DNA of 37,772 nt, taken from the NCBI GenBank assembly GCA_016873715.1, contig VGWF01000032.1, positions 1 through 37,772 of the forward strand. Reading direction: 5' to 3'. The notes beneath the pieces were generated by a model. It saw only the letters and a list, made by a program, of their open reading frames with translations. It was not told where the DNA came from and made no database searches. Below, piece by piece: positions 556 to 25,627 of the stretch. Position 1 is the first letter of the stretch. Every line of letters begins with the position of its first letter. A program made the translations under genes and the position numbers. The DNA comes from Lentisphaerota bacterium (GTDB lineage Bacteria; Verrucomicrobiota; Kiritimatiellia; PWTM01).

Positions 556-1191
556 TCAGCGCCGCCGGGGCGCGCGGGCGGCCTCGGCCTCCGCGATGGA
601 GGCGAGGCTGAGCTTCATGTCCTTCAGGCGCCCGTTCTGGATTCCGTAGATCCAGCCGTGAACGGTGAGGGCTTGGCCGCGCGACCACGCGTCGCGGACG
701 ATTGTCGTGCCGGCGACGTGCTGCACCTGCTCGCGGACGTTGATCTCGCAGAGGCGGTCCACGCGGGCGGCGTGGTCGGCAATGCCCGCCAGTTCGCGGC
801 GGTGCCGTTCCCGCATCTGGCGGATCGGGTGGAGCCAGTTGTCGATCAGCCCGTGGGCCGCATGGTCCAGCGCCGCCTTCACGCCGCCGCAGGCGTAGTG
901 GCCGCAGACGATGACGTGGCGCACCCGGAGCACGTCGACAGCGTATTGGAGCACCGCGAGGCAGTTGACGTCGGTGTGAATGACCTGGTTCGCGACGTTG
1001 CGGTGGACGAACAACTCGCCCGGCAGGAGCCCGACGATGGCCTCGGCCGGCACGCGGCTGTCGGCGCAGCCGATCCAGAGGAACTGCGGCGTCTGCTTGT
1101 GCACGAGGCGCGTGAAGAAGTCGGGCGTCCGGCGGACCGCCTTCGCCGCCCACCGCCGGTTGTTCTCGAACAGCGTCTTCACGGTCTTCAT
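556..1191 (-). CDS. can: Beta-class carbonic anhydrase (Can type)
   Basis: A 211-residue cytoplasmic zinc enzyme that interconverts CO2 and bicarbonate. The zinc and catalytic residues of the beta class are visible: C42-x-D44-x-R46 in GCADSRVP, and H98-x-x-C101 in CGHYACGG. The segments FVHRNVANQVIHTD and TVHGWIYGI closely match E. coli Can, and the length agrees with that enzyme (220 aa). The start at MKTVKTLF was chosen because it aligns with Can and follows a GAGG ribosome-binding site; the frame stays open for 70 more codons upstream, but that extension overlaps the sulfatase promoter region and looks non-coding. It is divergent from the sulfatase with about 100 bp between them. Likely a housekeeping bicarbonate supplier. 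Confidence 0.95.
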   Translation of the reverse strand: MKTVKTLFENNRRWAAKAVRRTPDFFTRLVHKQTPQFLWIGCADSRVPAEAIVGLLPGELFVHRNVANQVIHTDVNCLAVLQYAVDVLRVRHVIVCGHYACGGVKAALDHAAHGLIDNWLHPIRQMRERHRRELAGIADHAARVDRLCEINVREQVQHVAGTTIVRDAWSRGQALTVHGWIYGIQNGRLKDMKLSLASIAEAEAARAPRRR

Positions 1192-1210
1192 GGTCCGGCC
1201 CTCGAATGTG

Positions 1211-1239
1211 TCGCCATCGCCCAGATTCGCGCCTACGAT
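1211..1239 (+). promoter_or_regulatory. Possible sigma70-like promoter for the sulfatase
   Basis: TCGCCA (4 of 6 to the -35 consensus), a 17-base spacer, then TACGAT (4 of 6 to the -10). It lies in the divergent can/sulfatase gap, 55 bases before the sulfatase ATG. The call rests on pattern matching only. Confidence 0.3.
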
Positions 1240-1294
1240 ACGTGGGTTTCCGCAAATGGCCAGCCGGATGTCGGCGGGCCCGGGAGGATTCGGC

Positions 1295-2764
1295 ATGAAG
1301 CGACGGATGGGGATCGGCGCGGTGGCGGGGGTGCTGGCGCTGGCCGGAGGCGCCGCGGCGGCGGAGCGGCTGAACGTTCTCTTCCTGGCGTCGGACGACA
1401 TGCGGCCGCAGCTCGGCTGCTACGGCGATCCGCTGGTGAAGTCGCCGAACCTCGACCGGCTGGCCGCGCGCGGGCGGCTCTTCGAGCGGGCCTACTGCCA
1501 GCAGGCGCTCTGCTCGCCGTCGCGCATCTCGCTGCTGTCGGGACGGCGGATCTCGACGACGAAGATCGACCAGATCGGGCCGACGCTCCGCAGCACGATG
1601 CCGGACATCGTGACGCTCCCGCAGATGTTCAAGAACGCCGGCTGGCATGCGCGCAGCCTGGGCAAGATCTACCACGTCGGCATCGACGACCCGGCGTCGT
1701 GGAACGAGCCGCCGTGGCACTCGAAGGCGCCGCGCTACGGGCCGGCGGGGATGGAGCGCGTGAAGGCGCGTGCCGCGGAGATGAAGGCGAAGGGCATCCC
1801 GATCGAGGAGAAGGGGCCGAACCGTCCGTCGTTCGGCGGCCCGGCGTTCGAGGGGCCGGACGTGGCCGACGAGGCTCTGCTCGACGGGGACACCGCGCGC
1901 CAGGCGCTGGAGGCCCTGCGCGCGCTGGCGAAGACGCCGGACCGCCCGTTCTTCCTCGCCGTCGGCTTCGCCAACCCGCACGTGCCGTGGGTCGCGCCGA
2001 AGCGCTACTGGGACCTCTACCGTCCGGAGGACATCCGGATTCCCACCAACAACTTCGTCCCCCGCGGCGCGCCGGTGTTCGCCGCGAAGTCGGGGCAGGA
2101 TTTCCTCTGGTACGGCAACATCCCGAAGGACCGGGTCATCACGCCGGAGTTCGGCCGGCAGTGCCTGCACGGCTACTTCGCGGCGATCAGCTACGTCGAC
2201 GCGCAGATCGGCCTCCTGCTCGGCGAGCTCGACCGGCTCGGCCTCCGCGAGAAGACGATCGTCGTGTTCTGGGGCGACCACGGCTACTACATGGGCGAGC
2301 ACGGCTGGTGGGGCAGCAAGCACAACAACTACGAGGGCGCGACGCGCGTGCCGCTGATGATCGCCGCGCCGGGCATGAAGTCCGCCGGCAGGCCGACCCC
2401 GGCCGTGGTCGAGTTCATCGACATCTTCCCGACGCTCGCCGACCTCGCCGGGCTGGCCGCGCCGGCGGGCATCGAGGGGCGAAGCCTGCGGTCGCTGCTG
2501 GACGATCCGTCCGCGCCGTGGAAGGCGGGCGCGGTCAGCCAGTACCGGATGGGCGGGAACTTCGGCACGGCCCTCCGCACGGACCGCCACCGCTACGTCG
2601 AATGGGTCGACAAGCAGGGGGCCGTCGCCGGCCGCGAACTGTACGACCACGCGACCGACCCGGGGGAGAACGTCAACGTCCTCGACGGCGCGCCGGCGGA
2701 CCTCGTGCGGGGCCTTGCGGAGCAGCTCGGCGCGGTCCTGCGGCAGCCGGCGCGGACGCCGTGA
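1295..2764 (+). CDS. Exported Cys-type sulfatase, iduronate-2-sulfatase-like
   Basis: A 489-residue S1-family sulfatase that would hydrolyse sulfate esters, probably on a sulfated polysaccharide. Residues 1-23 form a Sec signal peptide (MKRRMGIGAVAGVLALAGGA). The metal pair D34-D35 sits in LFLASDDMRP. The formylglycine motif is C73-S-P-S-R77, the Cys form that must be matured by FGE or anSME; neither maturase is in this window. WGDHGYYMGEHGWW near residue 330 supplies further metal and active-site residues. The start is set by GGGAGG seven bases upstream. DDMRPQLGCYGD and the overall length fit the iduronate-2-sulfatase-like subfamily, but the true substrate cannot be read from sequence. Confidence 0.92.
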   Translation: MKRRMGIGAVAGVLALAGGAAAAERLNVLFLASDDMRPQLGCYGDPLVKSPNLDRLAARGRLFERAYCQQALCSPSRISLLSGRRISTTKIDQIGPTLRSTMPDIVTLPQMFKNAGWHARSLGKIYHVGIDDPASWNEPPWHSKAPRYGPAGMERVKARAAEMKAKGIPIEEKGPNRPSFGGPAFEGPDVADEALLDGDTARQALEALRALAKTPDRPFFLAVGFANPHVPWVAPKRYWDLYRPEDIRIPTNNFVPRGAPVFAAKSGQDFLWYGNIPKDRVITPEFGRQCLHGYFAAISYVDAQIGLLLGELDRLGLREKTIVVFWGDHGYYMGEHGWWGSKHNNYEGATRVPLMIAAPGMKSAGRPTPAVVEFIDIFPTLADLAGLAAPAGIEGRSLRSLLDDPSAPWKAGAVSQYRMGGNFGTALRTDRHRYVEWVDKQGAVAGRELYDHATDPGENVNVLDGAPADLVRGLAEQLGAVLRQPARTP

Positions 2765-2842
2765 GCCGTCGCCCCTCAGCCGCGGCGGAGTGAGGCGTCC
2801 GGCCCGGGCGGTCGCGCGACCGCGGGAAGGCGATCTGCAGGC

Positions 2843-2870
2843 TTGACAGGCCCGGCTCGGACCCTACCCT
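2843..2870 (+). promoter_or_regulatory. Likely sigma70-like promoter for the PEP-CTERM gene
   Basis: A perfect TTGACA at 2843-2848, a 16-base spacer and TACCCT at 2865-2870. It lies 73 bases before the PEP-CTERM start. The exact -35 hexamer is notable in such GC-rich DNA, while the -10 is weak (3 of 6). Confidence 0.45.
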
Positions 2871-2943
2871 TGTGCCGTCCGGACGCCCGTATTCGAAGGG
2901 GCCGGACAGGGTGCGTCGGGAGGCCGTGCGCCGGGAGGGGGGC

Positions 2944-3891
2944 ATGAGAGCTGTCGCATGGGCGGCGTCGGGGCTTGTCATGGCAACCGGCGCGTGCGCG
3001 CAGTTGCTGTCGTTCTCCGCGGCGGAGGAACTCGACACGGAATGGCGGTTCTGGAACGCCTACAACAGCGGCATTCCGGCCCCGCCGGAGCAGTTCGGCA
3101 ACCCGAGCGCGTCGAACCTGAAGGCCCAGACGGGGCGCACAAGTCTCTCCGACGCCGCCTCGCCGTACGGTGGGGCGGCGGTGGTCCGAAGCCAGATCAC
3201 GGCCGATGCGGATCTCAAGGCCTACGCGCGCGCGGAGACCACGGGGCAGCTGGTCACCGGGCGGATGTGGAGCGCCGCCTCGGGCCGGAGCGCCTCCGGC
3301 TGGCGGGCCACGTCGGGGACCTTGCCCGGCGGGCAGCCTTTCGCGGGCGCCTTCAACTTCTCCTTCGAGGGTGACCTGACCATCCAGCCGTCGAGCACGG
3401 TCTTCCTCGATTTTGCGTCGGTCTCCGTGGGGTTCCGCGTGTACTACCCGGAGGCGGTCGAGGGCACCCCCGGGGCGAGCTACTCGGGCCTCTCCGTGCT
3501 GAACCACAACGGGCTGGTCCAGGAGTTCGATTCGCAGGGAGGGTACTACGATATCCACACCGGGGTGCAGACCGGTGTGTTCGCCGTGACGGTGTCCAGC
3601 ACGGCGATCGCGAACGGATGGCACGTGAGCGTGGCGGGTTCCCTTCCGGTCGGCGGCGTGATCGGCGGTTTCAATGCCGTCGACTACTCGCTGGACGTGT
3701 ATGCCTCCGCCCATGGCGACGCCGGCGTTTCCGTCGCGGACTTCGAGAACACGGGGAGCTTCAGTTTCACCGGGCCGGGCGACATCGTCTTCGAGCCCGG
3801 TGCCGTGCCGGAGCCCTCCGCCGCCCTCCTGCTTGCCCTGGGCGGGCTGGCCGCCTTGTCCTTCCGCCGCCGGCACCGCGCACGCCGCTGA
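2944..3891 (+). CDS. PEP-CTERM sorted secreted protein of unknown function
   Basis: A 315-residue exported protein with a signal peptide (MRAVAWAASGLVMATGACAQ) and a textbook C-terminal PEP-CTERM signal. That signal is VPEPS, then a hydrophobic helix AALLLALGGLAALSF, then a basic tail RRRHRARR. In known systems an exosortase recognises this signal and couples sorting to exopolysaccharide production; no exosortase is in the window. The body is rich in Gly, Ser and aromatic residues, as in a secreted beta-sandwich, and I do not recognise its family. The start at 2944 was preferred over 2872 because it follows GGGAGGGGGG and begins the signal peptide. It is the first gene of the rightward group. 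Confidence 0.85.
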   Translation: MRAVAWAASGLVMATGACAQLLSFSAAEELDTEWRFWNAYNSGIPAPPEQFGNPSASNLKAQTGRTSLSDAASPYGGAAVVRSQITADADLKAYARAETTGQLVTGRMWSAASGRSASGWRATSGTLPGGQPFAGAFNFSFEGDLTIQPSSTVFLDFASVSVGFRVYYPEAVEGTPGASYSGLSVLNHNGLVQEFDSQGGYYDIHTGVQTGVFAVTVSSTAIANGWHVSVAGSLPVGGVIGGFNAVDYSLDVYASAHGDAGVSVADFENTGSFSFTGPGDIVFEPGAVPEPSAALLLALGGLAALSFRRRHRARR

Positions 3892-3918
3892 ACGCCCCTC
3901 CGGCCGGGCGCGGGGCGG

Positions 3919-3947
3919 TTGCCGCCCGCGACGATTGCTGGCATAAC
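3919..3947 (+). promoter_or_regulatory. Possible promoter placed almost on the start codon
   Basis: TTGCCG (4 of 6), a 17-base spacer and CATAAC (4 of 6). The -10 ends only 12 bases before the ATG at 3960, and no Shine-Dalgarno sequence lies between. If real, the transcript would be leaderless or nearly so. Confidence 0.3.
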
Positions 3948-3959
3948 TTCCCGGCTGTG

Positions 3960-6506
3960 ATGGCGCGCTGCGTTTCGAGTCTGGTTCCGCACGGGGCCGG
4001 CCGGCTGGCCGCGGTCGTTGCGCTTGCCTGGGCCGTGACGGCGGCGCGGGCGGGCGAGCCTTCGCCGGCGGACGAGGTCGCCGCGCTGCGGGCCGCGGTG
4101 ACCGACCTGGCGGCGTCGTTCGGGGACCGCTACCCCGGCGCGGCCGGTTATCTCGGGCGGATCGATGCCGTCGCGGGACGGCTGGGCGCCGGCGACGCGG
4201 CGGCCCGCGCGGAGTTCGACGCCCTGCGGCGCGAGGCGCTGATCGCCAATCCCCTGGTGAGCGGGCGCCCGATTCTCTTCGTCGTGCGCAGTCAGTTTGC
4301 GAAGGGCCATCACAACACCGAGACCTTCTTCCCCGCGGCGCAGCACGAGTTCAACAGCGGGCGGTTCTCGCCCGGCGGGGCGCTCAAGGCGATCGACCTC
4401 GCCCGCGGCGGCGCGGTGCGGACGCTGATCGACCTGCCCGAGGGCGTCGTGCGCGACCCGGACGTGAGCTTCGACGGCACGCGCGTGCTCGTGTCGCTGC
4501 GGCGGACGCCGGCCGACAGCTACCACGTCTGGGAGGTCGGCGCGGACGGAACGGGGCTGCGGCAGCTCACCACCGCGGCGGACGTGGACGACCTCGACCC
4601 GCTGTACCTGCCCGACGGCGGCATCGCCTTCAGTTCCACCCGCGAGCCGAAGTACTGCATGTGCAACCGGCACATCATGGCGAACCTCTACCGGATGCAC
4701 GCGGACGGCTCGAACATCCGCCAGATCGGCAAGAGCACGCTCTTCGAGGGCCACGGCGCGCTGCTGCCGGACGGCCGCATCCTCTACGACCGTTGGGAGT
4801 ACGTCGACCGCAACTTCGGGGACGCGCAGGGGCTCTGGACCGTCCATCCCGACGGCACGGGCCACGCGCTCTACTGGGGCAACAACACGGCCTCGCCCGG
4901 CGCCGTGCTCGAAGGCCGCGCCGTGCCGGACTCGGACCTCTTCCTCGCGACCTTCAGCTCGTGCCACGACCGGCCGTGGGGCGCGCTGGCGCTCGTCGAC
5001 CGCCGCCGCGGACTCGAGGGCGCCGGGCCGGTGGTGCGCACGTGGCCCGCGAGCGCGACCCGGCTCATCAGCGAGGAGGGCTGGTCGCTCTTCGACCGGT
5101 TCGCATCGGTGAAGCCGAAGTACGAGGATCCGTATCCGCTCGGCGCCCGCCACTTCCTCTGCGCGCGGATGACCGGCGAGGGCGAGGCGATGGGGCTCTT
5201 CCTGCTCGACGTGTTCGGCAACGAGATCCTGCTGCACGCGGAGGCGCCGGGCTGCTTCGATCCGATGCCGCTGGCCGCGCGCCCGCGTCCTCCCGCGATC
5301 CCCGCGCGCCGCGACGACCGCGGGCCCGCGGAGGGCTCCTTCTACGTCGCGGACGTCTACGCGGGCACGCACATGCAGGGCGTCGAGCCCGGGTCGGTGA
5401 AGTGGCTGCGCGTGGTCGAATCGCCGGAGAAGCGGCAGTGGACCGCGCCGACCTGGGGCGGGCAGGGCATCGAGGGGCCGGCAATGAACTGGCACGACTT
5501 CGCGAACAAGCGGATCCTCGGGACGGTCCCCGTCGCCGCGGACGGTTCGGCGTGGTTCGCGGTTCCCTCGGAGCGCTTCGTGTACTTCCAGCTCCTCGAC
5601 GCCGACGGCAGGATGGTGCAGTCGATGCGCAGCGGGACGATCGTCCAGCCGGGCGAGACCGCCGGCTGCATCGGCTGCCACGACGACCGGTCGATGGCCG
5701 CCCCGGTCGGCTCCTACGTGCGGCATCCCGGCCGCGGCGGGCCGGCGCGCCTGCAGCCCTGGCGCGGGCCGGAACGGCTCTTCAACTACCGTGCCGAGGT
5801 GCAGCCGGTGTGGGACGACCACTGCGTCCGCTGCCACGACTTCGGCAAGCCCGCGGGGGAGAAGCTGATCCTCGCGGGCGATCGCGATCTCGCGTTCAAC
5901 GCCTCGTACATCGATCTCTGGCGTCGGGGCGCGATCCGCGCGATCGGTGCGGGTCCCGCGCCGGTCCAGCCGGCACGGTCGTGGGGCTCCCACGCGAGCC
6001 GGCTCGTGGAGGTGCTCCGCAAGGGGCATGCGGGCGTCCGGCTGACGCCGGAGGACTGGGACCGCATCGTCACCTGGATCGACCTCAACGCCCCGTACTA
6101 CCCGAGCTACGCCAGCGCCCACCCGGAGAACCCGGCGGGGCGGTCGCCCCTGGATTCGAAGCAGGTGGAGCGGCTGGAGACGCTGACCGGCGTCCCGCTG
6201 CGGAAGATGCTCTCGCACGGGGGCAGCAAGGGGCCGCAGATCGCGTTCGAGCGGCCGGACCTCAGCCCGTGTCTCGCGGCCCTCGCGGCCGACGATCCGC
6301 GCCGTGCCGAGGCGCTGGCGATCGTCCGCGCCGGCGCCGCCGAGTTCGCGCGGAACCCGGAGCCGGATGCCGACGGCTTCCGGCCCTGCCCGGTCGACGC
6401 ATGGCGCGAGGAGAAGTACGCGGCGCGGCAGGCCGACCTCGACCGTCACCGCTCCGCCATCGCGGCCGGCGGGTCGCACACGGACGGCGGGGGAGGCGGC
6501 GAGTGA
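3960..6506 (+). CDS. HzsA-related secreted c-type haem protein with WD40-like repeats
   Basis: An 848-residue exported protein. A signal peptide (about residues 1-31) is followed by PD40/TolB-like propeller strands, for example DPDVSFDGTRVLVSLRR and DDLDPLYLPDGGIAFSS. Two haem-c motifs follow: C570-IG-C573-H574 and C622-VR-C625-H626. A KYCMCNRH segment in the propeller may hold another metal site. This layout matches proteins annotated as HzsA-related, named after the alpha subunit of anammox hydrazine synthase but common in PVC bacteria that do not make hydrazine, where the role is unknown. Nothing here suggests anammox. The gene overlaps the GH16 gene by 4 bases, so a periplasmic redox or carbohydrate-linked role is plausible but inferred. 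The start was chosen for the signal peptide. Confidence 0.85.
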   Translation: MARCVSSLVPHGAGRLAAVVALAWAVTAARAGEPSPADEVAALRAAVTDLAASFGDRYPGAAGYLGRIDAVAGRLGAGDAAARAEFDALRREALIANPLVSGRPILFVVRSQFAKGHHNTETFFPAAQHEFNSGRFSPGGALKAIDLARGGAVRTLIDLPEGVVRDPDVSFDGTRVLVSLRRTPADSYHVWEVGADGTGLRQLTTAADVDDLDPLYLPDGGIAFSSTREPKYCMCNRHIMANLYRMHADGSNIRQIGKSTLFEGHGALLPDGRILYDRWEYVDRNFGDAQGLWTVHPDGTGHALYWGNNTASPGAVLEGRAVPDSDLFLATFSSCHDRPWGALALVDRRRGLEGAGPVVRTWPASATRLISEEGWSLFDRFASVKPKYEDPYPLGARHFLCARMTGEGEAMGLFLLDVFGNEILLHAEAPGCFDPMPLAARPRPPAIPARRDDRGPAEGSFYVADVYAGTHMQGVEPGSVKWLRVVESPEKRQWTAPTWGGQGIEGPAMNWHDFANKRILGTVPVAADGSAWFAVPSERFVYFQLLDADGRMVQSMRSGTIVQPGETAGCIGCHDDRSMAAPVGSYVRHPGRGGPARLQPWRGPERLFNYRAEVQPVWDDHCVRCHDFGKPAGEKLILAGDRDLAFNASYIDLWRRGAIRAIGAGPAPVQPARSWGSHASRLVEVLRKGHAGVRLTPEDWDRIVTWIDLNAPYYPSYASAHPENPAGRSPLDSKQVERLETLTGVPLRKMLSHGGSKGPQIAFERPDLSPCLAALAADDPRRAEALAIVRAGAAEFARNPEPDADGFRPCPVDAWREEKYAARQADLDRHRSAIAAGGSHTDGGGGGE

Positions 6507-12095: not shown

Positions 12096-13985
12096 ATGAA
12101 CTACTACTACGCCGGCGGGGACGGGCAGCCGGTCGGCCCGCTCACGGCCGGGCAGATGCAGGACCTGTATCGCACCGGCACGATCGACGACACCACGTGG
12201 GTGATCGAGGAGGGCGCCGCGGACTGGAAACCCTACGCGGCGGCCGTTCCTTCCGTGGAGGACGACCCGGCGCCCCCGCCGGCCGGGCCGGAGTGCCGTC
12301 ACTGTCTCGCCGGGAATCCTCCCGGGGCGCGGTTCTGCGAGTCGTGTGGCGAGCCCCTCGACGAGGCCGCCGGGGCCGTGCTCCCGCCGGCGGCGGATGC
12401 GGAGCCGGAGGATCCCCCGCCGCCCGCCGCGCCGACGGTCGGGCTGTCGAAGCATGCGTTCCTCAGCCACTCCTCCCGGGATCACGACGTTGCCCTGCAG
12501 ATCTGCGAGATCCTGGAGAGCCGCGGCGTGAGCTGCTGGATCGCCCCGCGCGACATCGACCCCGGCACGCCCTACGACGAGGAGATCATCCGCGGCATCG
12601 AGAGCTCGCAGACGTTCATCCTCCTGCTCTCGGGCTCGTCCAACGAATCGCAGCACGTCAAGCGCGAGCTGATGCGCGCCCTGCGCGCGAGCCATCCCAT
12701 CTACCCGATCCGCATCCAGAAGGTCGAGCCGGGGCCGAAGCTTGAGTACCTGCTCGAGGGCATCCACTGGGTCGATGCCTGGGCCCCGCCGCTCGAGGAG
12801 CACCTCGACCGGCTGGCGGAACTGATCCTCACCGCCGGACCCGACGCCAAGGGCCACCGCGCGCCGGCGGGCCGCAAGTTCGGCGTCGGTCCGCTCTGGA
12901 GGGTGCGGCGCGGCTGGCGCATCGCGGGCGGCATCGCGGTGACGCTGTCCCTGCTTGCCGTCGCCTGGGCCGCCATGACCTGGAGGACCGGCATCATCTC
13001 CGGCATCGTCGACTACGTGACGCGGCAGATGGAGTCGCGGCTGGGCGCCGTGGGGGAGCGCGAAGCGCCGCGGACGACGAAGCCGGCGGACGACGACCCG
13101 CCGGCGGCGACAGGCGGCTCGGGCCGCTATGCGGCCCTCGTCGCCGAGGGCGCCGAGGCGGCGGCCGCCCGTCGGTGGCAGGATGCCATCAACGCCTACG
13201 AGGCGGCCGTGGCGCTGTCCAACCAATTCGAGACGGCGATGGCGCTCGACCGGGCAAAGAACGCCCTCCGGGGTGAGCGGGAGACCGCCGTTGCATACGC
13301 CCGCGCCATCGCCGCGGGAGAGCTGTCGGAGAAGAAGGGCGACTTCCGCGAGGCCCAGCGGGACTACGAGGGAGCGGCGCGCAGCGCGCAGAGCGACGCG
13401 GACCGGGCGCAGGCGTTGGACAAGGCCCGCCGCGCGGGGGAGAGCATAGCGCTCCAAGCCCGGCGGGAGGACGTGGATCGGATCCTCCGGGCCGCGGTCG
13501 AGTTCGAAGGCCAGAAGGACTGGGACCGCTGTTCGGAGGAGTGCGGGAAGGCCCTGGCCGCGGCTCCCGACGAACCCTCGACCAATCGCGTCCTGGAGTT
13601 GCAGAAACGTCTCGCGTCCGCGATGGCCGAGGAGGTCAAGAACCGGCGGCCGGTGGAACAGACGTTCCAGATCGGATGCATGTCGAAATCCGGGGCTCCG
13701 CGGAAGTACCCTGCCAGCGGGCAAGTCCGTGACGTTTCGGGAGAGGTGCTGGGCGAACTCGCCATCGAGATCGAGTTCTTCGGGACGACAGCCAAGATGT
13801 TCTTCACCCGTGCCAAGCGGAACAGCCGCGCGGATCTCTGCACATTCCGGAACGACGATGCGGTGGGCCTGGTTCGTGTTGCCGAGGTGGATGGCGTGTC
13901 CTTCTCGTTCCGAATCACGGAGCTGAAGAACGGGTTGGCAGAGAGGATCGAGACCTTGGCGATCCAAGTGACGGCGAAGCGATAG
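12096..13985 (+). CDS. Membrane-anchored GYF_2 / zinc-ribbon / TIR-domain protein
   Basis: A 629-residue modular protein. Residues 2-48 are a GYF_2-type domain (YYYAGGDGQPVGPL, then WVIEEGAADWKPY). Residues 67-84 are a zinc ribbon with C67-x2-C70 and C81-x2-C84. Residues 119-245 are a TIR_2 domain: KHAFLSHSSRDHD at the first strand, ILLLSGSS, then VKRE191L, the usual place of the NADase Glu. A hydrophobic helix lies near 277-295. An Ala-rich helical region of TPR or coiled-coil type runs from about 325 to 520, ending in an unrecognised beta-rich domain (about 530-629). There is no signal peptide, so TIR should face the cytoplasm. The start is MNYYY because the GYF domain begins there. The next gene follows by 14 bp. 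A signalling or defence role is inferred only. Confidence 0.85.
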   Translation: MNYYYAGGDGQPVGPLTAGQMQDLYRTGTIDDTTWVIEEGAADWKPYAAAVPSVEDDPAPPPAGPECRHCLAGNPPGARFCESCGEPLDEAAGAVLPPAADAEPEDPPPPAAPTVGLSKHAFLSHSSRDHDVALQICEILESRGVSCWIAPRDIDPGTPYDEEIIRGIESSQTFILLLSGSSNESQHVKRELMRALRASHPIYPIRIQKVEPGPKLEYLLEGIHWVDAWAPPLEEHLDRLAELILTAGPDAKGHRAPAGRKFGVGPLWRVRRGWRIAGGIAVTLSLLAVAWAAMTWRTGIISGIVDYVTRQMESRLGAVGEREAPRTTKPADDDPPAATGGSGRYAALVAEGAEAAAARRWQDAINAYEAAVALSNQFETAMALDRAKNALRGERETAVAYARAIAAGELSEKKGDFREAQRDYEGAARSAQSDADRAQALDKARRAGESIALQARREDVDRILRAAVEFEGQKDWDRCSEECGKALAAAPDEPSTNRVLELQKRLASAMAEEVKNRRPVEQTFQIGCMSKSGAPRKYPASGQVRDVSGEVLGELAIEIEFFGTTAKMFFTRAKRNSRADLCTFRNDDAVGLVRVAEVDGVSFSFRITELKNGLAERIETLAIQVTAKR

Positions 13986-13999
13986 GCAGGGAGACGGCC

Positions 14000-15163
14000 A
14001 TGGACATCCGATTCACCTGCGGCGCGTGCGGGCAGCGGTTCGAGGCGCCCGAGGACATGGCGGGGCAGACGGTGGCGTGTCCCAACCCCTCGTGCGGGAA
14101 GCCGGTGACGGTGCCGGCCGCCACGGCGGCGCCGGTCGAGGCGACGGTGGCATCGCCCGCGCCCGTGTGGCGGCCGCCGCCTCCGCCTCCGCCTGTTGCG
14201 CACGGGCCCCGGCCCGCGGCTGCCGCGCCGGCCGCCCCTGCGCCCGGTACACCGCCTGTGCCCCCGGCATCCCCGGCGCGTCCCGCGCCGCCGGTCACAC
14301 CGCCGCGCCCCGCGCCGGCCCGTCCGCCCGCGCGTCCGCGTGCCCCCGCGGCGTCCGCCCCGGCCTCGAAGCCTCCCGCGTGGCGCGTGGCGCTTGCGCT
14401 GGCCCGGCGGTTCCTCGTGTGGGGCAGGAAGGTCCTCTTCGGGCTGGCCGGGTGGATCGAGCGGGTGACGGCGTCGCTGCGCACCGGCCGCGCGGAGGTC
14501 GGGCCGCAGGAGTACCGCGACGCGGTGCAGCGGCTGGTCAAGTGCGCCGTCGGGATCGTCGCGCTGTTCGTGCTTCAGTGGATCCTCGGCCTCTTCGTGA
14601 AGTCGCGCGGCTACCGCGGGGTCATGATGGCGGGCGACTGGATCCACCTGGCCGTCGCGATCGCGGTGGCGGTGCTGGCGGTCCGCGCCCACCGGCCGGT
14701 CCGCACGCTGGCGGTCTTCCACGCCCTTTCCGCGCGCGGCCTGCGGCGGTGGCTCGGGGGCGAGGCGTGGATGGGGGATCTTGCGACGGCCATCGGTCAC
14801 GCGGTGCTGCTGCTGCTCGCGGGTGGACTGTACGCATTCCTGCTGCCGCACGTCGCGCACTTCAACGAGGCGGTTCTTCACTTCCCGACGCTGACGACGA
14901 TCCTGAGCGTCGCGGTCCTGCTCGCGGCCCTCGGGGTTCTCCTCATGCTGTGGAAGAGCCTGCAGCCGGCGATCGACCACCTGACCGCCCGTCTCGCGGA
15001 GAAGGTCTCGGTTGCCGCGGGCGCGGTGGATCCGGTGCGCTGCCCGGCCTGCTATGCCGCCAACGATCCCGCGGCCGCCGTCTGCGCGTTCTGTGGCGCG
15101 GCGATGCAGGCGCCGGAATCCCCCGCCGCGCCGCCGGAGACCGACCGTCCGGAATCAGGGTGA
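14000..15163 (+). CDS. Multi-pass membrane protein with zinc ribbons at both ends
   Basis: A 387-residue protein. The N-terminal ribbon has C7-x2-C10 and C27-x4-C32 in the form often seen in planctomycete-type zinc ribbons (FTCGACGQRFEAPEDMAGQT). A long Pro/Ala linker runs from about residue 40 to 128. Hydrophobic segments follow around CAVGIVALFVLQWILGLFV, IHLAVAIAVAVLAV, AVLLLLAGGLYAFLL and ILSVAVLLAALGVLL. A C-terminal ribbon has CPAC and CAFC pairs. AGGGAG precedes the ATG. It sits 14 bp after the TIR gene, almost certainly in one operon, so it may be the membrane partner of the TIR protein. I do not recognise the family. Confidence 0.8.
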   Translation: MDIRFTCGACGQRFEAPEDMAGQTVACPNPSCGKPVTVPAATAAPVEATVASPAPVWRPPPPPPPVAHGPRPAAAAPAAPAPGTPPVPPASPARPAPPVTPPRPAPARPPARPRAPAASAPASKPPAWRVALALARRFLVWGRKVLFGLAGWIERVTASLRTGRAEVGPQEYRDAVQRLVKCAVGIVALFVLQWILGLFVKSRGYRGVMMAGDWIHLAVAIAVAVLAVRAHRPVRTLAVFHALSARGLRRWLGGEAWMGDLATAIGHAVLLLLAGGLYAFLLPHVAHFNEAVLHFPTLTTILSVAVLLAALGVLLMLWKSLQPAIDHLTARLAEKVSVAAGAVDPVRCPACYAANDPAAAVCAFCGAAMQAPESPAAPPETDRPESG

Positions 15164-23648: not shown

Positions 23649-23674
23649 GCGGCGAGTGGGGCGGGGCGATCAGC

Positions 23675-24537
23675 GAACATCGAACACCGAACATCGAACG
23701 CCCAACATCGAACGACGGGCGAGCCGACTCAACATCCAACACCCAACGTCCAACAACCAACATCCAACGAGAGGGATGGAGGGCCGAGCTATGCGAGGCT
23801 GCGGGGGCTCAATACCCAAGGGTCGGCGGCGAGCATTGAACATCGAACACCGAACATCGAACGCCCGGCGAGCCGACTCAGCGGCCAACAGCCAACATTC
23901 AACAGCCAACACCCAACGTCCAACAACCAACATCCAATGAGGGGGATGGAGGGCCGAGCTATGCGAGGCCGCGGGACTCAATACCCAAGGGTCGGCGGCG
24001 AGCATTGAACATCGAACACCGAACATCGAACACCCAACATCGAACGACGGGCGTGCCGACTCAACATCCAACACCCAACGTCCAACAACCAACATCCGAC
24101 GAGGGGGATGGAGGGCCGAGCTATGCGAGGCCGCGGGGGCCCAATACCCAAGGGTAGGCGAGCATTGAACATCGAACACCGAACATCGAACGCCCAACAT
24201 CGAACGACGGGCGAGCCGACTCAACACCCAACAACCAACGTCCAACAACCAACATCCGACGAGGGGGATGGAGGGCCGAGCTACGCGAGGCCGCGGGGGC
24301 TCAATACCCAAGGGTCGGCGGCGAGCATTGAACATCGAACACCGAACATCGAACGCCCGGCGAGCCGACTCAGCGGCCAACAGCCAACATTCAACAGCCA
24401 ACACCCAACGTCCAACAACCAACATCCAACGAGAGGGATGGAGGGCCGAGCTATGCGAGGCCGCGGGGGCTCAATACCCAAGGGTCGGCGAGCATTGAAC
24501 ATCGAACACCGAACATCGAACGCCCAACATCGAAGTT
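23675..24537. repeat. Tandem array: 160-169-bp units built of 7-base words plus the 24-base palindrome
   Basis: Units begin at 23675, 23838, 24007, 24167, 24330 and 24497 (the last partial), giving periods of 163, 169, 160, 163 and 167. Each unit opens with 7-base words of the form GAACATC/GAACACC/GAACGCC, then GAGCCGACTC, then AACATCC/AACACCC/AACGTCC words. It then carries a single 24-base palindromic element (23778, 23948, 24110, 24270 and 24440 are its start points), and closes with CTCAATACCCAAGGGT. Both strands stay open over long frames because a 7-base word repeated in three phases gives repeating peptides; these are not considered genes. No integrase, cas gene or unique spacers are present. 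Confidence 0.92.
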
Positions 24538-24549
24538 CGGGCTTCGGGG

Positions 24550-24829: not shown

Positions 24830-25627
24830 ATGAAGAGACTTGCAGCGATTACCCTGTGGTTGGTGGTCGGCAGTTCTCTGGCAGATATGGTCGCGTACAA
24901 TGGAGTAGTGCGCATATGGGCAGAATCGGACTCTTCCATCGCGCTTCACTTTCATGATTGGCGCAAGGATCCGCATATCGATGACCCAGAGAAGCCGGAC
25001 ACACCCTTTAGCGAGGCTAATCGTAGTGCGTACGTTGAAGTCTGGAGTAAGACGACAGGAAAGAGGCTCTGGCGCATGCCATCGCCGGCACTCTCGTATT
25101 TGTGGGTAAGCCCGGATGGGAGATACATAGTCGGCATGTCGGACATCCAGATTCACAACCCGTATCAGCTTGTTGTATTCGACGAGACGGGGACGATCCG
25201 CCTCCGAGAACACGTTGTTCAACAAAAGGCTGCGTTCACGGCAGACGAGCTATCCGCGTTCTGGACCAAGTTTCCAGAGGCCAAACGTCACTTGAACAGC
25301 CGTGTCAAAACGATTGGCGGCAAGCATTACGTCGACTTCCTCGTCATGGACATGCCGCGACTGCTCTCGAAAGAAGCATGGGATGCTCTGTTTCAGAAGG
25401 CGGCGCCAAACCCAGAGTTCCCTTACGTGGGCGAGGGTGTGACCAATCGCGTCTACTGGTTCAGTGATAATCCCAACCCGAGAGTCCATGAAGCCGACGG
25501 CAAGACCTACCTGACATTCGACAGCACAGGACTCTTCGGGCCGAGCAAGCGCGTGAAGATTCAGATCCCCCAAGGGGTGGGGCTTACTGGCGACCCGCTG
25601 CGAGGCTCGCCAGCAGCACACCCCTGA
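24830..25627 (+). CDS. Orphan secreted protein in lower-GC DNA
   Basis: A 265-residue protein with a signal peptide (MKRLAAITLWLVVGSSLAD). The mature part has beta-rich segments such as AYVEVWSKTTGKRLWRMPS, YLWVSPDGRYIVGMSD and YQLVVFDETGTIRLREHV, suggesting part of a beta-propeller-like fold. I do not recognise the family. The DNA is visibly poorer in G+C than its neighbours (near half in the first codons against about 70% around it) and uses A/T-ending codons they avoid, consistent with recent acquisition. TTGGGGA precedes the ATG. Repeats flank it on both sides, and it converges on recN. Confidence 0.75.
   Translation: MKRLAAITLWLVVGSSLADMVAYNGVVRIWAESDSSIALHFHDWRKDPHIDDPEKPDTPFSEANRSAYVEVWSKTTGKRLWRMPSPALSYLWVSPDGRYIVGMSDIQIHNPYQLVVFDETGTIRLREHVVQQKAAFTADELSAFWTKFPEAKRHLNSRVKTIGGKHYVDFLVMDMPRLLSKEAWDALFQKAAPNPEFPYVGEGVTNRVYWFSDNPNPRVHEADGKTYLTFDSTGLFGPSKRVKIQIPQGVGLTGDPLRGSPAAHP

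Follow-up and report, generated by a model that had tools for sequence, protein, structure and literature searches.

We propose that P0001, a protein encoded in the analysed stretch of DNA (37,772 nucleotides, hereafter the window, which is contig C32 of a 98% complete, 5.1 Mb assembly in 289 contigs), is a one-pass receptor whose cytosolic head is exchangeable between a TIR domain and a Hanks-type kinase. As an explanation of the whole we hold this reading with moderate confidence, and the receptor architecture and the head exchange, taken jointly, appear likely. In the proposed model P0001 would span the inner membrane once, with the N-terminal half (GYF_2, zinc ribbon and TIR) in the cytoplasm and the C-terminal half (TPR and beta domain) in the periplasm, and it would belong to a class-wide set of modular receptors with one layout: a zinc-ribbon, FHA or GYF prefix, an output head (a Ser/Thr kinase of the Hanks type in some members, a TIR domain with Box 2 in others), one membrane helix and a variable ectodomain. 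Binding of a ligand or peptide by the TPR-beta ectodomain could alter the clustering of the TIR heads, which would in turn cleave NAD+, or produce a signal of the ADP-ribose type, or else serve as a scaffold; to an NAD-based output we assign slightly less than an even chance. The most likely role of P0001 is envelope or ligand sensing. The sequence itself shows in which order the domains are arranged, that ectodomains are shared, that TIR and kinase heads alike carry zinc-ribbon prefixes of a single type, that the TIR subfamily has its membrane helix and that the Glu is conserved.

Bacterial TIR domains have mostly been studied as soluble immune effectors. If the proposed model is true, they would also have a role in transmembrane signalling, via one-pass proteins that share their sensors with receptor kinases; this would provide a concrete model for the origin of TIR receptors through head swapping on existing sensors, and TIR outputs could be coupled to kinase inputs that are already known. 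A literature search, which included few subscription papers, found no published description of membrane TIRs that share sensors with receptor kinases.

Domain anatomy of P0001 and its kinase counterparts

The order of domains that had been claimed for P0001 from the DNA alone (GYF_2, zinc ribbon, TIR with E191, one membrane helix, helical repeats and a beta domain) is confirmed by Pfam and AlphaFold2 (Table 1). The TIR_2 match lies above the curated cut-off (80.9 bits against 28, with positions 2-121 of the 122-position profile covered), and E191 sits within the motif KREL. The zinc ribbon scores under the cut-off of the DZR family (2.6e-4), yet has a clean CxxC-x10-CxxC pattern. The C-terminal half has no strong Pfam family, the TPR match being sub-threshold only. 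The charge difference across the membrane helix, with lysines and arginines concentrated on its N-terminal side, is clear in P0001 but weak in several relatives. Both P0001 and P0002, the product of the next gene, have a codon composition of the coding type (third-position GC 0.89, second-position GC 0.52 and 0.61, respectively). The GYF_2 domain of P0001 is one of eight matches in its genome, and across this genome and the class GYF_2 domains and zinc ribbons are frequently found as prefixes. The full architecture is a single case, with no second instance in the sampled genomes, and no P0001 was found in viral contigs.

Table 1. Coordinates of the features of P0001 and P0002 in the window
Feature	Position	Strand	Evidence
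P0001, 629 aa, GYF_2-zinc ribbon-TIR-TM-TPR-beta domain, putative membrane TIR receptor	12096..13985	+	Pfam, AlphaFold2
GYF_2 (DUF4339-type), P0001 residues 3-46	12102..12233	+	Pfam PF14237, 5.7e-9
DZR-type zinc ribbon CRHCLAGNPPGARFCESC, P0001 residues 67-84	12294..12347	+	C67/C70/C81/C84
TIR_2, P0001 residues 122-240, with Toll-like Box 2 RDIDPG and E191	12459..12815	+	PF13676 1.3e-22, alignment, tree
E191 codon, position of the TIR NADase catalytic Glu	12666..12668	+	alignment
Single membrane helix, P0001 residues 276-294, predicted N-in	12921..12977	+	K/R 5 vs 1 (N vs C side)
TPR-like helical ectodomain, P0001 residues ~343-518	13122..13650	+	AlphaFold2, VIA-align, identity to kinase ectodomain
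C-terminal eight-stranded beta domain of P0001	13665..13982	+	common only to G013 P0003 among the genomes searched
14-bp intergenic gap, GGGAG Shine-Dalgarno-like motif before P0002	13986..13999	+	sequence
P0002, 387 aa, LysW/FmdB-like ribbon-proline-rich linker-four TM helices-DZR-type ribbon	14000..15163	+	Pfam, sequence

The C-terminal half of P0001 is the informative part. Residues 342-629 of P0001 are homologous to the ectodomain of a kinase, P0003, from an uncultured Lentisphaerae genome (G013, CAISWQ010000028), with 36-37% identity over ~290 aa (E 4.5e-45). In P0003 a LysW-like zinc ribbon is followed by a Ser/Thr kinase domain (PF00069, 1.2e-44), and the TPR-beta half comes after a membrane helix. 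P0001 and P0003 form the sole clear pair with this half among 388 genomes of the phylum, the class sample and a GTDB scan, which apart from G013 returned just TPR-level matches in Parvibaculaceae. An AlphaFold2 model of residues 329-629, based on the two sequences, contains seven helices of the TPR type followed by eight strands (pLDDT 88); the beta domain alone is modelled with pLDDT 87 and pTM 0.79. The helices resemble those of TPR proteins (VIA-align best Z ~10), and no LRR was found in P0001, either by Pfam or in the modelled ectodomain. For the beta domain, Foldseek returned no fold relative in the PDB with E below 0.001, and the S-layer DUF1608 domain was discarded as a candidate fold, its best Z in VIA-align (5.3) being too weak for assignment. 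When relatives of G013 were searched for the beta domain, two weak matches emerged, the stronger of which (G174, E 0.001) was taken as chance, as the long frame at that position is a DNA methyltransferase-like ORF.

P0003 is the third of three kinases encoded in a row in G013, and the ectodomains of the other two are FGE, and LamG with LRR. These sensors too are found on a TIR protein, L088, encoded in a member of the genus to which G013 belongs (g11): its ectodomain matches the FGE of the first kinase (47%, 1e-67) and the LRR of the second (55% over 229 aa, 2e-75). The genome of the window encodes 11 Hanks kinases, several with a similar layout. Two of them, L128 and L129, combine a zinc ribbon, a kinase and a membrane helix with LRR ectodomains that are homologous to the LRR of the TIR proteins L084 and L088 (35%, 2e-43, and 37%, 4e-37). 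Ribbons of the LysW type stand before kinase heads as well as TIR heads, and one is also found at the start of P0002. Among known systems, the PknB-like receptor kinases of the phylum (for example P0003 of G013 and, in the genome of the window, L128, L129 and L133) are close to P0001 and its TIR relatives in the zinc-ribbon prefix, the single membrane helix and the homologous ectodomains, but differ from them in that the head is a kinase and not a TIR domain.

The simplest account of these sequence relationships would be that the head was exchanged while the prefix and the ectodomain stayed; the sharing of sensor halves between TIR and kinase proteins suggests head swapping on surface sensors. 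Alternatively, the promiscuous FGE, LRR and TPR domains could have been recruited independently and in parallel. Such recruitment is less likely in view of the LRR match at 55% and of the TPR-beta match, which is unique. The TPR-beta link between a TIR and a kinase is, on the other hand, seen in a single homologue. The surprising result of this analysis lies beyond the coordinates of P0001 and P0002 themselves: common ectodomains on which TIR and kinase heads appear to be exchanged. The earlier note had listed an envelope-sensing device among the possible functions, and this is now the best reading, as P0001 shares its C-terminal half with the ectodomain of a kinase and keeps the catalytic-position Glu in its TIR.

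Two side observations concern the locus of P0003 and a locus with related ribbons. In L043, downstream of the P0003 gene by ~1 kb or more, there is an AAA ATPase (2137-3261, minus strand; PF00004, 1.3e-35) whose helical N-terminal extension appears MIT-like by eye, and a Snf7/ESCRT-III-like protein (4870-5496, minus strand; PF03357, 4.5e-6, just below the cut-off). With a coiled-coil protein of the same locus, 54% identical to a putative zinc-binding protein upstream of the G013 kinase, they possibly form an ESCRT-like module, judging by sequence similarity. In L141 (G000:C104) two proteins are encoded side by side (1142-3094 and 3425-5146, both on the minus strand). One has a GYF_2 domain and a GxxxSGKS motif that resembles a P-loop, and its start looks FHA-like by eye; the other has a LysW ribbon, a DZR ribbon, a membrane helix and a helical ectodomain, i.e. 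the layout with no head, and bears both ribbon types of P0002.

A subfamily of membrane TIR domains with Box 2

The TIR domain of P0001 carries RDIDPG within the BB loop. This motif, Box 2 (RDxxPG), has been reported in the TIR groups of TLR, IL-1R and MyD88, and according to a survey of TIR domains the prokaryotic members typically lack it (PMC7075850). Our TIR_2 survey covered 146 relatives. Among 45 TIRs of the class that were readable for Box 2, the pattern APR[DN]xx[PA]G occurs in 10. All ten are followed by a membrane helix, compared to 9 of the 35 others (Fisher p 3e-5, a value that ignores relatedness), and they group together on the tree with moderate support (77/92, and 78% of bootstrap trees). 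According to the alignment, all ten also retain the catalytic-position Glu. E191, which had been named as the expected NADase Glu, indeed aligns with the Glu of these membrane relatives and with those of Cat1 and TIR-STING. Nine TIR proteins from the survey are 35-48% identical to the TIR of P0001; in all of them one membrane helix follows the TIR, and the ectodomains are FGE, LRR, LamG, CsgG or caspase-CsgG.

In a rival reading the TIR would be no enzyme but would assemble signalling complexes, as the TIRs of TLR and MyD88 do, and would work together with Hanks kinases encoded by its own genome. Such a scaffold or adaptor would be consistent with the RDIDPG motif at the position known from those proteins (PMC7075850), with the 11 kinases of the genome, several of them similarly laid out, and with L087, in which a TIR-TM-caspase-CsgG gene is followed, two genes further downstream and on its own strand, by a gene for a zinc-ribbon kinase with several membrane helices. 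The arrangement in L087 also agrees with the receptor model. However, pure scaffolds need not retain the catalytic-position Glu, which is invariant in the subfamily, and we regard a scaffold function as unlikely.

With Toll-like and IL-1 receptors the proposed receptor P0001 shares one membrane helix between a sensing ectodomain and a cytosolic TIR, as well as Box 2 in the BB loop, and the relatives L084 and L088 additionally share LRR ectodomains. On the other hand, in P0001 the order is reversed (the TIR is N-terminal), the ectodomain is TPR-beta with no LRR, and the family has bacterial zinc-ribbon, FHA or GYF prefixes. The likeness is best considered an analogy, as there is no evidence of direct descent. 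One may speculate that the class runs a common repertoire of surface receptors, in which a given periplasmic sensor can freely take either a TIR or a kinase head, and that these receptors, some of them with LRR, are functional bacterial Toll-like receptors that signal envelope or extracellular cues via NAD chemistry or TIR assembly; this extended reading we consider possible, if somewhat doubtful.

Several members of the subfamily deserve mention in their own right. L084 (5150-8758, minus strand) is a protein of 1203 aa with the layout FHA-TIR-TM-FGE-LRR; its LRR ectodomain is long and, by its predicted domain order, it is nearest to the Toll-like layout among the proteins seen here. TIR-TM-CsgG proteins are encoded in L087 and L089, where they have a caspase domain, and in L095 and L096. 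Directly upstream of the TIR-TM-CsgG gene in L087, L095 and L096 there is a conserved gene for a TPR-type protein of ~690-835 aa (38%, 1e-150), a recurrent two-gene TIR system in contrast to P0001 and P0002. A protein of 465 aa with a TIR (IAPRDIRSG), a membrane helix and an ectodomain is encoded around 1560-1895 of L107 (MT836910.1), an unverified 'Bacteriophage sp.' scaffold from the human gut that is possibly a bacterial contig. Because this scaffold encodes the TIR-TM-ectodomain layout, the Box-2 subfamily reaches beyond the class.

P0002 and the surroundings of the two genes

The 14-bp spacing of the two genes and the description of P0002 as a multi-pass protein with ribbons at both ends hold true, with four membrane helices located between residues ~182 and 316. 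The ribbons are formed by C7/C10/C27/C32 and C348/C351/C362/C365, and the linker contains 34 Pro in 83 aa. The positive loops fit a predicted topology with both termini on the cytoplasmic side, which would place the ribbons of P0002 on the same side as the GYF domain and ribbon of P0001. Eukaryotic GYF domains bind proline-rich peptides, and the linker of P0002 is a plausible ligand of the GYF domain of P0001. Most likely, P0002 is a cytosol-facing membrane partner or scaffold; that it is the physical partner of P0001 we suggest tentatively.

The two proteins may instead be merely adjacent, P0002 being one of the many zinc-ribbon membrane proteins of the class, a view to which we give some credence without preferring it. 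The membrane region of P0002 has no relatives in the 388 genomes of the phylum; matches of the whole protein are confined to the ribbons and came from 31-32 genomes when two overlapping samples of 58 genomes each were searched, and none of the eight loci with related TIRs encodes a P0002 homologue detectable by sequence. Against mere adjacency stand the common strand and the short gap with a Shine-Dalgarno-like motif, which suggest co-transcription, as well as the proline-rich linker, suited to binding of the GYF type. The interpretation of the two genes as a two-gene module, put forward in the earlier note, finds no support in this sample, given the orphan membrane part and the lack of P0002 homologues in the related loci; the 'matching zinc ribbons' are present in both proteins, but, being common prefixes, they are not in themselves evidence of a dedicated pair. 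Since no second P0001 of full architecture was seen among the genomes sampled, there is nothing against which joint occurrence of precisely these two genes could be counted.

P0001 could also be a stand-alone anti-phage protein, i.e. a membrane-held TIR NADase triggered by infection and leading to abortive infection, with P0002 as a membrane effector or anchor. The TIR_2 domain with Glu at the catalytic position would fit such a function, as would the weak resemblance of the TIR domain, and of that domain alone, to SAVED-TIR and ThsB TIRs in PADLOC, and the occurrence of the caspase and FGE domains of some relatives in predicted conflict systems (PMC7159879, PMC10907252). The domain vocabulary of these FGE/CLec systems (TIR, kinase, FGE, caspase) overlaps with that of the proposed receptor set, in which, however, one membrane helix parts the head from the ectodomain. 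The genes around P0001 and P0002 in the window are metabolic or envelope-related according to Pfam (sulfatases, TonB receptor, TonB, MFS, HrpB, Tricorn-like protease), and neither Pfam nor PADLOC revealed a convincing defence gene or a Thoeris partner (ThsA) among the scanned neighbours. A second-messenger synthase was likewise not found among them, nor were MoxR-vWA, a STAND NTPase or a retroelement among the scanned genes of the window. A defence island was rejected, as the neighbours gave just weak generic matches in Pfam and PADLOC, those of the HrpB helicase to Cas3 and of one HTH protein to mad1.

Thoeris ThsB, Cat1 and TIR-STING are soluble and respond to cytosolic cues. They resemble P0001 in the TIR domain with its aligned Glu, but no partner genes of such systems were found among its neighbours. 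The ectodomain of P0001 has its homologue on a kinase receptor, and matches of the TIR to mobile elements comprise one distant cyanobacterial plasmid (31%) and the unverified 'phage' scaffold. With these neighbours and no convincing PADLOC match, the phage-defence interpretation finds no positive support here, and we consider it rather improbable.

A scan for promoters and terminators was uninformative in the DNA of the window (72% GC). Elsewhere in the window, five degenerate repeats of 160-170 bp form an array at 23665-24545, with nested AACATCCAACACCCAAC / GAACATCGAACACC words; it adjoins a stretch of low GC (0.59 vs 0.72), where a possible secreted protein of 265 aa is encoded (24830-25627). 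A protein of 962 aa that matches the middle domain of hydrazine synthase alpha (PF18582, 5.7e-33) is encoded at 3618-6506 on the plus strand, among sulfatase and oxidoreductase genes.
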